Below are positions 5,250 to 33,673 of a stretch of 63,110 bases of DNA, in pieces (position 1 is the first letter of the stretch; each line of letters opens with the position of its first letter). Below the pieces are notes generated by a model that saw nothing but the letters and a program-made list of their open reading frames with translations, searched no databases and was not told the origin of the DNA. The stretch spans positions 1-63,110 of the forward strand of contig JAGWBM010000013.1 in assembly GCA_021295895.1 (NCBI GenBank), read 5' to 3'. Both the position numbers and the translations under genes were made by a program. This DNA comes from Pseudomonadales bacterium (GTDB lineage: Bacteria > Pseudomonadota > Gammaproteobacteria > Pseudomonadales > Azotimanducaceae).

Positions 5250-6545
5250 TTGCTGAAGCGGATTACCGAACACGACATCGACCGCACTCGCGTGTCCGAG
5301 AAGGCGGTCGCCGTGATCGACAAGCTGCGCCGTGCCGGATTCGATGCCTATCTCGTCGGCGGCTGTGTTCGCGACCTGCTGCTCGGCAAGATGCCGAAGG
5401 ATTTCGACGTTGCGACCGACGCCACGCCAGAGGACGTGAGGGACGTCTTTCCGCGCGTGCGGCTAGTGGGCCGGCGGTTCCGAATCGTGCACGTTCGAAT
5501 GGGTCGCGAAATCATCGAGGTGTCGACGTTTCGACGCCCGGTCAGCGACGAGGAAGACCACGGGCCCCACCTCTCAGACGACGGCATGATTCTTCGGGAC
5601 AACCTCTACGGCACCATCGACCAGGATGCGTTCCGGCGAGACTTCACCGTCAACGCGCTCTACTACGATCCCGATGCGGACGTCGTACTCGATTATTGCG
5701 AAGGGATGAAGGACATCGCTTCCCGCACCCTACGGCTCATCGGCGAACCCAAGATCCGGTTCCAGGAAGACCCGGTGCGGATCCTTCGCGCCATCCGGTT
5801 CGCCGCCAAGCTGGATCTCGAGCTGCACCCCGATACCGAGGCTGCGGTCGCACCGATGTGCGAGATGCTCAACGCCATACCGCCGGCGCGGCTGTTCGAC
5901 GAATTCACCAAGCTGTTCCTCACCGGGCACGGCGAACGGGCCTTCGAATTGCTGTGCGAACACGATCTCGTGGAAATCCTCTTCCCGCTACCACCACACG
6001 GCGAAGCGCTCGCCACGCTTGCCCTTGCGAGTACGGATCAGCGCTTGAAGGTGAACAAGCCGGTAACACCCGGTTTTCTCATCGCCGCGTTCCTCTGGCA
6101 GGCGTATCTCGACCGCCTCGAGCGCACGGCGACCACCGCGCCCGATCAGAGCGACGACCCCGCCAGCACGGTGATCGCCGCCCAGCAGTCCACCATCTCG
6201 ATACCGCGCCGTCACGGCTGGTTCGTGCGCGATGTCTGGCACCTCCAGCCCCTTCTCGCCGACCGTACATCGCGCAATGTTGCGCGCGTACTCGCGCACC
6301 GACGGTTCCGCGCCGCCTACGACTTCCTGATGATTCGGTGCGCGACCGGCGATGCGCCCGAAGAACTAGGCGATTGGTGGACCAACGCCCAAACGCAAAA
6401 CACCGACTCGTTGTTGCGCGAACTACCCGGGGGTCCTCGTCGACGGCGCCGACGGCGTGGCCGCAATCGCCGGAATCGGGTTCCGGCCAATATGAACGCG
6501 GCGAACGGTGGTCCAAACATGCCCCAAGAGGCCGCGCAACCATGA
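5250..6545 (+). CDS. pcnB: Poly(A) polymerase I
   Basis: A 431-residue nucleotidyltransferase that adds poly(A) tails to RNA 3' ends and so promotes decay by enzymes such as PNPase, also encoded here. The catalytic head is recognisable: FDAYLVGGCVRDLLLG, then KDFDVATDATPE with the metal-binding Asp pair, RLVGRRFRIVHV, and RRDFTVNALYYD. The basic C-terminal tail (GGPRRRRRRRGRNRRNR) resembles the basic tails of bacterial PAP I and may contact RNA. The start is TTG 5250, just upstream of the family's usual N-terminal region. Length is close to E. coli PcnB (465). folK, the usual next gene, is absent. Confidence 0.94.
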   Translation: MLKRITEHDIDRTRVSEKAVAVIDKLRRAGFDAYLVGGCVRDLLLGKMPKDFDVATDATPEDVRDVFPRVRLVGRRFRIVHVRMGREIIEVSTFRRPVSDEEDHGPHLSDDGMILRDNLYGTIDQDAFRRDFTVNALYYDPDADVVLDYCEGMKDIASRTLRLIGEPKIRFQEDPVRILRAIRFAAKLDLELHPDTEAAVAPMCEMLNAIPPARLFDEFTKLFLTGHGERAFELLCEHDLVEILFPLPPHGEALATLALASTDQRLKVNKPVTPGFLIAAFLWQAYLDRLERTATTAPDQSDDPASTVIAAQQSTISIPRRHGWFVRDVWHLQPLLADRTSRNVARVLAHRRFRAAYDFLMIRCATGDAPEELGDWWTNAQTQNTDSLLRELPGGPRRRRRRRGRNRRNRVPANMNAANGGPNMPQEAAQP

Positions 6546-6561
6546 TCAGCCCACGGACGCC

Positions 6562-7245
6562 ATGGCGGTAGCGGCGCCAGAAACCCCGGTCGCAGAAGCG
6601 GATTCCGCACCACACTACATCGCGGTCGAGGGACCCATCGGCGTCGGCAAGACGACCCTGGCGCGTCGCCTCGCCGACACCTTCCACCGTCCCCTGGTCC
6701 TCGAACCGGCTATCGAGAACCCGTTTCTAGACCGCTTCTACCGCGAGGGACGGCGCTACGCGCTGCCCACCCAGTTGTTCTTTCTTCTGCACCGTGCCAA
6801 CCAGGTCGCCGGATTTTCACGGGACGACCTGCTTGGCCCGATCCTGGTTACCGACTTCCTGATGGAGAAGGATCGGCTCTTCGCCCAGGCGAATCTCGAC
6901 GAGAACGAACTCGAACTCTACGAACAGATACACCGAACCCTGGACGTTCGTCCGCCGGAACCCGACCTGGTCATCTACCTGCAAGCGCCGGTTGCCGTCC
7001 TGCTCGACCGGATTCGCCGCCGCGGCATCGCCTACGAGCAACGCATCGACTCGGAGTACGTCACGTTGCTCAGCGATTCATACACCGAGTTCTTCCACGA
7101 ATACGACGGAGCGCCGCTGCTGATCATCAACGCGGCGGAAATCGACTTTGCCGACAACGAGGCGCACTATCGGGCGCTCGTGGAGGAAATCAAGAACATG
7201 AGCGGCGTGCGCCAATACTTCAACCCGAGTCCCAGTCTTCTCTAG
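6562..7245 (+). CDS. Deoxynucleoside kinase (dNK/dGK family)
   Basis: A 227-residue P-loop kinase predicted to phosphorylate deoxynucleosides for dNTP salvage. It has Walker A EGPIGVGKTT near the N-terminus, a dNK-type ERS-like segment (DFLMEKDRLFAQANL), PDLVIYLQAPVAVLLDRIRRRG, and the lid region with AYEQRIDSEYV. The frame is open back to GTG 6508, overlapping pcnB, but ATG 6562 is 17 nt after the pcnB stop and gives the usual family length. In related genomes this kinase follows folK between pcnB and panB; here folK is missing. Nucleoside specificity cannot be read from sequence alone. Confidence 0.88.
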   Translation: MAVAAPETPVAEADSAPHYIAVEGPIGVGKTTLARRLADTFHRPLVLEPAIENPFLDRFYREGRRYALPTQLFFLLHRANQVAGFSRDDLLGPILVTDFLMEKDRLFAQANLDENELELYEQIHRTLDVRPPEPDLVIYLQAPVAVLLDRIRRRGIAYEQRIDSEYVTLLSDSYTEFFHEYDGAPLLIINAAEIDFADNEAHYRALVEEIKNMSGVRQYFNPSPSLL

Positions 7246-12511: not shown

Positions 12512-12818
12512 TGGCCGTTTCGCTGAACGCGGCGCGCACCGTTGCCGTATTGACCCTGCTTGGCGGTCGGTACCGGCTACCAACGGAGGCGGAGTTCGAG
12601 TACGCCCTGCGGGCCGGGCGACACGGTCTACCACTTCGGTGACAACCCCCCAGACCCTCTGCGAGTACGGGAACGTCCCAGACCAGTCCCGCAATGCGGT
12701 CTCACCCGAACTGGTCACCGCAGCCTGCAGCGACGGTTTCGCGGACATGGCCCCGGTCGGGCAGTTCAAACCCAACGCCTTCGGCCTACACGACATGACG
12801 GGCAACGTCTGGGAGTGA
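12511..12818 (+). pseudogene. Remnant of a formylglycine-generating enzyme (FGE/SUMF1) family gene
   Basis: Joining three frames gives a typical FGE-sulfatase segment. GGRYRLPTEAEFEYALRAG is read from about 12565, in frame with an ATG at 12511 that overlaps the acs stop. After a shift near 12620 comes GDTVYHFGDN. After another shift near the C-run at 12646-12651 comes LCEYGNVPDQS, then CSDGFADMAPVGQF, KPNAFGLHDMTGNVWE and TGA 12816-12818. The catalytic C-terminal half is missing. FGE converts the CxPSR cysteine of sulfatases to formylglycine. It is a relic; two sulfatase genes lie about 17-21 kb away in the same window. Confidence 0.85.
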
Positions 12819-12819
12819 G

Positions 12820-13242
12820 CTAGCGCCGCGCTTTCACCACGTCAACTACGGACTCAGCAATGAGATCCTGAACCAGCTCGTTGTTGTATTCCAACCCGTA
12901 CATGCCGCAATGGGACTCGTCGTCCGCCTCCGGTTCGTGGACGAAGTTCAGCACCGAATGCGGCAAGACACTTCGCTTCGTCCCTCCAACATTGATGATC
13001 GCCAGCCGCGCCGTCCCGCTAACATTCAACTTGCGCTCCAACACGGCTCGCAGTGAGTCGAGTTGTTCACTACGGTCGCCGTCGAGCAGGTCAAGACAGT
13101 TCATGGACAGATAGGACTCTCCCTTGCGTAGTGCAAAGGCATCGCCCTCAACCCCATCGTCCTTTCGTATCTGGGTACCCTTGGCCAACCTCGCGCAATC
13201 GAACGCATCGGTGATCTCAACGATCTCCAAGCCACTAATCAC
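12820..13242 (-). CDS. Unknown protein, third gene of the three-gene cassette
   Basis: A 140-residue soluble protein that I do not recognise as a named family. It starts with GTG 13242 (MISGLEIVEITDAFD) and has CARLAKGTQIRKDDG, a central LAIINVGG, an acidic VHEPEADDESHCGMYGLEY segment and ends VVDVVKARR. The His-Cys-containing stretch looks like a conserved feature of small hypothetical proteins seen in such clusters, but I cannot assign function. The start overlaps the upstream gene stop by 8 nt (GTGATTAG). Bases are visibly less GC-rich than in neighbouring acs and pnp, suggesting transfer. It ends two bases from the FGE relic on the opposite strand. Confidence 0.65.
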   Translation of the reverse strand: MISGLEIVEITDAFDCARLAKGTQIRKDDGVEGDAFALRKGESYLSMNCLDLLDGDRSEQLDSLRAVLERKLNVSGTARLAIINVGGTKRSVLPHSVLNFVHEPEADDESHCGMYGLEYNNELVQDLIAESVVDVVKARR

Positions 13243-13927
13243 TCAGCGAGTCGATGCTCACGCACCGAAAGAAACCCTCGATGGAAGACTCCCCGCCAAC
13301 CCGATTAATCTGCGTTGGACGAGCACCGTCGGGTAGAAAGGTCACGAAGGAAACCATTCTGTCATCAAGGAATCTGATGCCAATCCGATGATCTCTGCTT
13401 CTTCTCCAAATCGCTCGCAACAACCCCTCTGTCGTCAGAATCAACTGGGGCCTCGACACAATTCTCGACCGATGCAAGTAGAGGAATCTGAAGAAACCAC
13501 GCAGTGACAATGGATTGAGCGCTTGTTGATCTTCCTCTGCGCCAGCCAACCCAACGAGCTCCTTCACCCTCCCTACGAGCGGCCGCAAGAAATCGTCCAA
13601 TTCCGCCATCGAAAGAAACACCAGCTGGTCCTCGACCGACATCGAATCGGACGGCACTTCGGACGATCTATCAAGTTCTGCTGGGTGGTGCAACGATCCC
13701 CCGTAATCCATGTCGGGCACCTTCGTTGGCATCACAGGATCTCCGGTAAGAGACCAGACAGGGTCGGACCACGTCGCAACCCGTCGCTGGACATCAGGCT
13801 CATACGCCTCCAAACGAAGGCGCGCAGACAACGCTTCCTTGGCTAGAAAAGCGCTCTGTCCAATCTCAGGGTAGGTGAGCTTGTAGTTGAACTCGTCATT
13901 TGGCACATCGTAGAGTACGTCAGACAT
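13235..13927 (-). CDS. Unknown protein, second gene of the three-gene cassette
   Basis: A 230-residue soluble protein starting MSDVLYDVPNDEFNYKLTYP. No signal peptide or membrane helix. The C-terminal half has a regular pattern (LRGFFRFLYLH, RPQLILTTEGLLRAIWRRS, IGIRFLDDRMVSFVTFLPD, INRVGGESSIEGFF) that suggests a compact alpha/beta or beta-rich domain found in uncharacterised proteins; no catalytic motif is obvious. ATG 13927 is chosen because it overlaps the upstream gene stop in ATGTCTGA. Its stop overlaps the next gene start by 8 nt, so the three genes form one translationally coupled operon. A defence or other accessory role is speculation. Confidence 0.65.
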   Translation of the reverse strand: MSDVLYDVPNDEFNYKLTYPEIGQSAFLAKEALSARLRLEAYEPDVQRRVATWSDPVWSLTGDPVMPTKVPDMDYGGSLHHPAELDRSSEVPSDSMSVEDQLVFLSMAELDDFLRPLVGRVKELVGLAGAEEDQQALNPLSLRGFFRFLYLHRSRIVSRPQLILTTEGLLRAIWRRSRDHRIGIRFLDDRMVSFVTFLPDGARPTQINRVGGESSIEGFFRCVSIDSLSD

Positions 13928-14585
13928 CGATCTCCATCCCGAAGTCAGTCGCAAATCTCATGAAATCCTCCAAGTCCGCACTTGTTTCTCCGATCGCCCG
14001 AAGAGCTATATCTTTGTCAGGGGTTTTTCTGTGGTAGTTCGCTGACATAAGGACTACGTTAACAGTCTTCGACTCATTCTCCTCCGACTTCTGCGCAGTG
14101 CTTGAGGACACATCCAGATGTCGTTCACAATCCCGAACGCCATGGTTCAGTTTGATAGATAGGGACGCCAATCCGTCCGTCCAATGACCCGTCCCGCCGA
14201 ACGTTTGGACCAGTCGGCGCGGCGCATTCGTGCACTCAACGTACGCCTTGAAGTTGCTCCCGACGGCCACGTATGGAATGTGTTTGAGTATTGATACGTA
14301 TGAAGTAGCCAGTTGCGAAACGACCCCGTCTGGGTCGGCCACAACGTTGCCGCCCAATGTCTGGGCCGTAATCGCCAACCGCGAGGGATCTAGTACGAGC
14401 CGGAGGTTGTTCTGATACTGAATACTTGACAGCGGCGGCGTAGTGAAAGGTAGCTCCGCGAACTCCCAACCACCCGGCAACTCCGGGAGCACTTTGTTGG
14501 CCAGCAACCAATCATGGTTAAGGATCGAGGGGTTGTGAGCGTTGGCCACAACAACGCTGGACACCTCTACCAACACGGGTGTCAT
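13920..14585 (-). CDS. Unknown protein, first gene of the three-gene cassette
   Basis: A 221-residue soluble protein beginning MTPVLVEVSSVVVANAHNPS. The early block ANAHNPSILNHDWLLANKVLP resembles an uncharacterised family I have seen with NPSILNPDFL-type motifs. Later it has LATSYVSILKHIPYVAVGSNF, and the C-terminal FMRFATDFGMEIDV. No catalytic signature is visible. ATG 14585 is preferred to TTG 14594; no strong ribosome site is seen for either. It lies 97 nt downstream of the pnp stop, same strand, and overlaps the next gene by 8 nt. AT content is higher than the backbone. Function unknown. Confidence 0.65.
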   Translation of the reverse strand: MTPVLVEVSSVVVANAHNPSILNHDWLLANKVLPELPGGWEFAELPFTTPPLSSIQYQNNLRLVLDPSRLAITAQTLGGNVVADPDGVVSQLATSYVSILKHIPYVAVGSNFKAYVECTNAPRRLVQTFGGTGHWTDGLASLSIKLNHGVRDCERHLDVSSSTAQKSEENESKTVNVVLMSANYHRKTPDKDIALRAIGETSADLEDFMRFATDFGMEIDV

Positions 14586-32213: not shown

Positions 32214-32236
32214 TCTCGAGGTTGGGGGATTGGCAA

Positions 32237-33673
32237 ATGAGATCTATGCGCTTGTTTTACAAACTGATATTGGTACTTACATGCGCCGCATATGCCCACG
32301 GTGACGACACGACGCCCCCGAATGTCGTCGTCATTTTTGTTGACGATCTCGGCTATTGCGACAGCGAACTCTACGGGTGCGACACGGTCCCCACGCCGAA
32401 CATCAAGCGCATCGCGGACGAGGGCGTGTTGTTCACCGATGGCTACGTCTCGAGTCCCGTTTGCTCGCCTTCCCGGGCAGGGCTTTTGACCGGCCGCTAC
32501 CAACAGCGTTTCGGGCACGAATTCCTGCCCAAAGTCGGGCAGGAAAGTGGCGACGGGTTGCCGGTGGGGGAGATGACCCTGGCAGATGCCCTGAGGAGCG
32601 CCGGTCATGTCACGGGCATGGTGGGCAAGTGGCATTTGGGTTCGCGGGAGCAATTCAATCCGATCAACCGGGGATTCGACGAACACTTCGGCATGAGTCC
32701 CGGGGGCACCGACTATCTCGACCCGACGCGAGACGACGCCAGAATCATGCGTCGTATTGGGGAACAGTTGATCGAGCCGGGATCGCCGTCAAAGTCGGCG
32801 TGGGAAGGCCGAGGCTACGGCACTTTGATGCGGGGAACTACCCCGGTCGAGGAAGACGACTACCTTACCGACGCTTTCACCCGCGAAGCGGTGGCGTTCA
32901 TCAGAAAACACCAGGAACGGCCGTTTTTTCTCTACCTACCGTATACCGCCGTTCACGGTCCCCTTCAGGTTACGCAGAAATACTACGACCGTTTCCCACA
33001 CATCGAAGACGAAGGTAGGCGCATCTATGCGGCAATGACATCCGCTCTCGACGACGGCGTCGGCGCCGTGTTGGATACGCTGGTGGAGGTCGGCCTCGAA
33101 GACAATACGCTGGTGGTTTTCCTCAGCGACAACGGTGCCGGCGTGTCCGATTACTGTAGCAACGAACCGCTTCGGCTGGGCAAGCAAACGATGTTCGAAG
33201 GGGGTATCCGTGTGCCGTTCACCATGAAGTGGCCAGCACGAATTCCCCAAGGCATTATCTACGAGCATCCGGTCAGCGCGCTGGACATCTTTCCGACAGC
33301 CGTCGCCGCCGCGGGCGGGGAGTTGCCGCCGGGTCGACACATCGATGGCGTTGACCTGATCCCGTATCTCGATGGTTCGAACAGCCAAAAGCCCCATGAC
33401 AAGCTGTTCTGGCGCGCCGGTTCCATATGGGCGGCTAGAGTAGGGGACTGGAAACTGATCTATGCCGCGGACCGCTACTGGCTCTACGATCTGTCCGAAG
33501 ACATCGGGGAGATCACCAACCTCGCCGACAAACGCGGGGATGTCATGAAAGTGATCAAAGCAAGCTACGCGCAGTGGAACAGCGGAAACATCGAACCGCT
33601 TTGGCCCTCGTTCGCCGCCAAGACCATGCCGCAATTCTCAGTGGACGGTATCCAGGTGCATTGGACCTTCTAG
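32237..33673 (+). CDS. Secreted sulfatase (type I, Cys-type)
   Basis: A 478-residue exported sulfatase. A signal peptide (LFYKLILVLTCAAYAHG) precedes PPNVVVIFVDDLGYCDSELY, with metal-binding Asp residues. VCSPSRAGLLTGR contains CxPSR, in which FGE makes the catalytic formylglycine. Also present are TGMVGKWHLGSREQFNPINR, LYLPYTAVHGPLQV, VVFLSDNGAGVSDY and VPFTMKWPARIPQG. Start ATG 32237 follows GGGGGA; TTG 32222 is an alternative. The frame is intact, in contrast to the neighbouring sulfatase, but the only FGE sequence in this window is a relic, so maturation depends on an FGE gene elsewhere. Substrate unknown. Confidence 0.9.
   Translation: MRSMRLFYKLILVLTCAAYAHGDDTTPPNVVVIFVDDLGYCDSELYGCDTVPTPNIKRIADEGVLFTDGYVSSPVCSPSRAGLLTGRYQQRFGHEFLPKVGQESGDGLPVGEMTLADALRSAGHVTGMVGKWHLGSREQFNPINRGFDEHFGMSPGGTDYLDPTRDDARIMRRIGEQLIEPGSPSKSAWEGRGYGTLMRGTTPVEEDDYLTDAFTREAVAFIRKHQERPFFLYLPYTAVHGPLQVTQKYYDRFPHIEDEGRRIYAAMTSALDDGVGAVLDTLVEVGLEDNTLVVFLSDNGAGVSDYCSNEPLRLGKQTMFEGGIRVPFTMKWPARIPQGIIYEHPVSALDIFPTAVAAAGGELPPGRHIDGVDLIPYLDGSNSQKPHDKLFWRAGSIWAARVGDWKLIYAADRYWLYDLSEDIGEITNLADKRGDVMKVIKASYAQWNSGNIEPLWPSFAAKTMPQFSVDGIQVHWTF

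Follow-up and report, generated by a model that had tools for sequence, protein, structure and literature searches.

A Pseudomonadales bacterium carries, among housekeeping genes, three genes, here called P1, P2, and P3, which on balance are best read as a horizontally moving three-component module of the toxin-antitoxin or abortive-infection type. They are part of the window, i.e., the whole stretch of 63,110 nucleotides that was analysed (Table 1). In this module, P3 would be a minimal ADP-ribosyltransferase-fold (ART-fold) enzyme serving as toxic effector and probably using NAD+ to act on a nucleic acid, on a protein, or on NAD+ itself. P2 would be an effector-specific antitoxin or adaptor holding P3 off, its C-terminal domain being the part kept with P3, whereas P1, with its weakly TBP-like duplicated fold, would be the common sensor or scaffold that frees P3 on infection or stress. 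We infer that P3 is toxic and uses NAD+, that P2 neutralises P3, that P1 acts as a sensor, and that the module works against phage.

Table 1. Features of the three-gene locus and its surroundings (window positions)
Feature	Position	Strand	Description
P1	13920..14585	-	221 aa; first gene; family with the [HN]NP[ST]ILNPD signature; common component of modular operons
P2	13235..13927	-	230 aa; second gene; proposed antitoxin or adaptor
P3	12820..13242	-	140 aa; third gene; GTG start; predicted ADP-ribosyltransferase-fold effector, PDC-M32B-like
Overlap ATGTCTGA	13920..13927	-	8 nt; P1 stop / P2 start
Overlap GTGATTAG	13235..13242	-	8 nt; P2 stop / P3 start
Gap between pnp stop and P1	14586..14682	-	promoter or leader presumed here
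FGE/SUMF1-like (formylglycine-generating-enzyme-like) relic	12556..12811 (about)	+	frame-shifted; scar of a variable site, outside the system

The locus and its relatives

The trio has acs on one side and pnp, rpsO, truB, rbfA, and infB on the other, and P1 and P2 are single-copy in a search of the window's genome. An earlier note on this DNA had described three minus-strand genes of no nameable family, more AT-rich than their flanks, and these points stand. Indeed, searches of Pfam, NCBIfam, and PADLOC gave no match to P1, P2, or P3 (a PHROG match of P3 was dismissed as chance), and their GC content of 54-56% and GC3 of 0.62-0.70 compare with 63-65% and 0.75-0.83 for pnp, acs, and pgi. A consensus search for promoter-like and terminator-like sites in the gap upstream of P1 found none, and neither direct repeats nor terminators delimiting an element were found around the trio. 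The FGE relic that the same note placed next door is real: it carries two frame shifts and ends with ...LHDMTGNVWE and a stop codon just short of the P3 stop, so that the acs/pnp site took up DNA earlier. An apparently intact sulfatase-like gene is found at 32222-33673 of the window and, given this gene, the relic may be the leftover of a sulfatase-maturation gene.

The test set beforehand, namely whether the trio travels together, gave a positive answer. A single scan with a P1 alignment, covering 84,980 species genomes, yielded 56 loci in Pseudomonadota, Acidobacteriota, Planctomycetota, Myxococcota, Nitrospirota, Nitrospinota, Bacteroidota, Cyanobacteriota, and others, and most loci with enough sequence display P1 followed on the same strand, with tight junctions, by genes of ~130-300 aa and ~125-215 aa. 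P1, P2, and P3 stand in identical order at ~20 further loci of many phyla (among others L004/L101, L060, L061, L066, L069, L075, L076, L078, L079, and L085), and the profiles made for P2 and P3 of the window type match at the expected positions in more than 12 of the scanned loci. The closest relative, L060, is 36% identical in P1 and in P3, and genome searches retrieved the same ordered trio from G133 (L004) and P1 relatives elsewhere too. The homologues thus do co-occur, and a match of all three proteins to housekeeping families was not found. The overlaps of exactly 8 nt, from which a fixed protein stoichiometry had been proposed, are present at both junctions, but among relatives the junctions vary from an overlap of ~22 nt to a gap of ~27 nt, which rules out the fixed overlap as a functional sign and points to ordinary translational coupling.

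A foreign origin, also suggested at the outset, gains support as horizontal acquisition: in 30 of 31 loci, the flanks exceed the trio in GC content, by 8 points on average. The scattering of pseudomonadotal P1s over the P1 tree, together with this low GC, is in line with horizontal transfer. P1 was absent from the viral contigs and phage records searched, so there is no evidence of phage carriage.

Predicted properties of P3, P2, and P1

P3 is predicted, with moderate confidence, to be an ART-fold enzyme. The best-ranked rows of a structural second look with its AF2 model (pLDDT 94.9) are mostly ART-fold proteins, with KptA/Tpt1 at a Z of 8.0 (rmsd 2.9, 95 aa), DarT at a Z of 5.1, and further ART proteins below, at Z values (8 or less) that can arise from a chance arrangement. 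CC0527, which is ART-like, is also among the best-ranked matches. The evidence for the fold is rated moderate because Foldseek alone returned no significant PDB match (best E 0.68). Within the 31 third-slot relatives, R18 and F36 are each conserved in 30, S46 in 28 of 29 (two gaps), and H111 in all; the L071 HEPN gene and its partner had been taken out of the profile iteration as false members by inspection. ARTs have their NAD-binding Arg in the first strand, and R18 is located in the first strand of the P3 model. The classical C-terminal ART glutamate is not conserved among these 31 relatives, their conserved set being R-S-H, and the activity of P3 is therefore uncertain.

P2 has a variable N-terminus and a conserved C-terminal domain (G168, W174, F186) that is kept with P3 and is related, via family members, to the C-terminus of PDC-M32A. 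By its position, P2 is taken as the effector-specific partner.

The sequence block noticed earlier in the first gene is genuine, NPSILN being the signature of the P1 family, in which N18, P19, L22, N23, D25, and L27 are invariant over 43 aligned relatives. The AF2 model of P1 (pLDDT 94.8) comprises two beta-alpha-beta3-alpha halves with a duplicated order of elements. Its structural matches in the PDB, namely McsB, AdoMetDC, and TBP at Z 7-8, are a mixed and weak set, with no clear solved homologue by model comparison; TBP reaches Z 7.2-8.0 at an rmsd of ~5, level with AdoMetDC and McsB, and no TBP-like function is claimed because these unrelated folds score equally. By sequence, P1 has no match in the PDB, where the P1 and P3 profiles retrieve nothing believable either. 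The fold of P1 is common to one unnamed viral protein in BFVD (E 3e-9, TM 0.64).

P1 homologues are also encountered in other settings. On cyanobacterial plasmids (L008, L009, L010, L015, L016, L017, L018, and L028), a homologue (~5950-6690) stands without P2 and P3, directly upstream of a giant gene of ~3,200-11,300 codons coding for a CARDB, Ig-domain, or "polymorphic membrane" protein, one being annotated as a colicin E3/pyocin S6 cytotoxin, and sometimes with a type I secretion cluster next to it; very large secreted proteins may be the partners of P1 in a second role. In Nitrospirota, including Magnetominusculus (L097, L102, L103, and L106-L109), P1 is likewise found without P2 and P3, and these proteins form one supported clade adjoining the HEPN-type operons on the P1 tree, a placement that suggests effector loss. 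Possibly another effector type of this layout is encoded in L005 (1-1896, minus strand), where a metallo-beta-lactamase-fold gene (Pfam 6.8e-5) comes third after a distant P1 homologue and a 193-aa gene.

Variable third genes and defence neighbourhoods

The gene in third position after P1 varies from locus to locus. It is P3-like at ~20 loci, a HEPN gene at L068, L071, L073, L082, L087, L100, and L111, a PIN gene at L063-L065, L067, L070, and L113, an HNH gene at L062 and L080, and a gene for an unnamed protein with a TQSCDL-like motif at L074, L083, and L098. Pfam recognised HNH at 7e-7, PIN at 2e-9 and 3e-5, and HEPN at 1e-3, the latter below the Pfam cut-off; all seven HEPN sequences have the SRAYYA and RNxADY motifs in common. 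In operons of the PIN and HNH classes, the gene in second position appears, from its sequence, to code for a short helical C-terminus of the antitoxin type. As toxin-class enzymes (ART-fold, HEPN, PIN, HNH) occupy the third slot in most types, P3 is the putative effector by position, and P1, being common to all classes, is the candidate sensor or scaffold. On the P1 tree, the effector classes require at least nine changes and cluster far beyond shuffles.

The first gene is not always P1. At L043, L044, L047, L048, L051, L054, L059, and L124, a TIGR04255 gene stands ahead of the same P2 and P3, and a P3 profile built from P1-type operons alone matches unseen third genes of TIGR04255 operons (L044 4e-18, L043 5e-10, L048 1e-8, L051 2.5e-8). 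The window P1 has no TIGR04255 match in NCBIfam. A homology of both families was rejected, a thin first comparison (E 0.012) being followed by nothing when 20 TIGR04255 were compared with 67 P1 sequences; with no sequence similarity detected, P1 and TIGR04255 are equivalents by position, not demonstrated relatives. TIGR04255 genes (L037-L059) head several kinds of three-gene operons, including M32-like pairs, PIN-like genes (L042, L046, and L055), and an HTH-containing protein with a "[TH]xxCD" protein (L037, L040, L041, L052, and L056). Of 143 genomes sampled from the class, 16 have the family, and it is not mentioned in the literature searched.

Several relatives are embedded in or adjoin defence loci, the neighbours having been picked by eye without a background rate. 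In Picosynechococcus PCC 8807 (L026), the trio is part of a type I restriction-modification (R-M) locus, with hsdR on one side and hsdS on the other. PADLOC places another between DUF499 and DUF1156 (L072), HmaC beside the trio at L061 and L088, PglZ and BrxL of BREX next to the operon at L071, and a type I R gene with an Hhe/PDC-S37-like helicase at L095, along with type IIG (L092), DrmMI/IIG-like (L074), and methyltransferase (L113) neighbours and a partial TmtA-like match (L077). The co-occurrence with defence loci that the earlier note asked about thus holds for relatives but not for the window copy, whose neighbours are housekeeping genes only, and numerous copies, including that of the window, are without a nearby R-M gene. 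The toxin-like or defence role, then offered as a guess, now has more behind it, given the homologues in defence loci and the toxin-class enzymes in the third slot.

The trio can also be read in other ways. In the first, which we regard as rather unlikely, the trio would be a purely selfish addiction (toxin-antitoxin) module, with P3 as toxin, P2 as antitoxin, and P1 as regulator or as a chaperone like that of toxin-antitoxin-chaperone systems, devoid of any anti-phage role and kept by post-segregational killing or chance. Plasmid and chromosomal copies, the patchy distribution, the low GC, PIN and HEPN toxins in the same slot, and the isolation of the window copy among housekeeping genes would all fit such a module, whereas the copies found time and again within or next to R-M, BREX, and Hma loci argue against it. 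In the second, improbable reading, P3 would have the ART fold but serve in regulation or modification instead of as a toxin, for instance as an enzyme of the Tpt1/KptA RNA-repair kind or one acting on neighbouring R-M proteins, and the trio would be a restriction accessory module. Indeed, Tpt1/KptA is the best structural match of P3 and several copies are found within type I R-M operons, but the copies remote from R-M genes and the nuclease toxins in the same slot speak against this reading. In a third reading, which is very improbable, part of the third-gene exchange would be an artefact, a promiscuous P1 landing beside unrelated toxin-antitoxin pairs without forming one unit with P2 and P3. 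The lone P1s of Nitrospirota and cyanobacteria and the dissimilarity of P1 to TIGR04255 speak for it, but order and strand are constant, with P1 first and tight junctions, across some 40 loci of many phyla and the classes group on the P1 tree.

The mobile three-component toxin-antitoxin or abortive-infection module stays the preferred reading, and a broader proposal can be put forward tentatively. P1, with TIGR04255 as functional equivalent, could be the shared sensor of a widespread, undescribed three-gene immune class with effector-specific second genes and interchangeable ART-fold, HEPN, PIN, and HNH toxins, of which the window would carry the ART-effector type and PDC-M32 would be a fused two-gene offshoot. 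If so, one common component would account for scattered hypothetical proteins of many phyla, the PDC-M32 candidate and the TIGR04255 family would gain a testable role, and an ART-fold effector would join the enzymes of bacterial self-killing immunity. As the layout is modular, with the same first gene and different toxins, operons alike in everything but their effector can be compared as a direct test of what P1 does.

Comparison with known systems

The nearest described counterpart is PDC-M32, a computational candidate of PADLOC that one paper annotates in a prophage of Sinorhizobium (PMC12429752); for many PDCs, validation is reported to be lacking (PMC12988326). It consists of two genes, M32A (~375 aa) and M32B (~123-131 aa), instead of the three in the window. 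In PDC-M32A, an unrelated N-terminal domain of ~255 aa is fused to the P2-like part, whereas the window P2 has no such domain and P1 is separate. The C-terminal domain of PDC-M32A matches relatives of P2 (L026 1e-5, L110 2e-4, L072 1.5e-4), PDC-M32B and P3 have the R...AF...LSV...H pattern and the gene order in common, and relatives of P3 match the PDC-M32B model at 0.015 (Picosynechococcus PCC 8807) to 7e-7. The canonical copies, like some relatives of the trio, are inside type I R-M loci. Full-length M32A proteins are found at L116-L118, and the M32A/B pairs of L116, L117, L118, and L120 adjoin hsdS-like genes; wherever the sequence extends to both sides, the pair is flanked by hsdM and hsdS.

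In PADLOC, the window P2 has no match to the PDC-M32A model up to an E of 5 and P3 none to the PDC-M32B model, for which a search of its own genome gave none either. The trio is thus not filed as a PDC-M32 member because its proteins reach no PADLOC model. Judged through their family members, P2 is a divergent relative of the M32A C-terminus and P3 one of M32B. The system was first described as a candidate for something undescribed, which holds for an operon unmatched by family libraries but not for the P2-P3 pair, given this distant kinship.

The operons headed by TIGR04255, a family labelled "sporadically distributed" in NCBIfam, likewise have three genes with the same P2 and P3, or PIN-like genes in other loci. 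In the ART superfamily, the P3 model aligns with proteins such as those of DarTG and KptA/Tpt1 over 93-101 residues (Z 8.0 to 4.9), but P3 has no sequence similarity to them, is smaller, and does not display the classical catalytic glutamate, and its partner genes are unlike DarG. Finally, toxin-antitoxin-chaperone (TAC) and other three-component toxin-antitoxin systems would be comparable in combining a toxin, its specific partner, and a shared third component in one operon, whereas here no result marks P1 as SecB-like, an HTH regulator is absent, and the order is P1-P2-P3 with the effector last.
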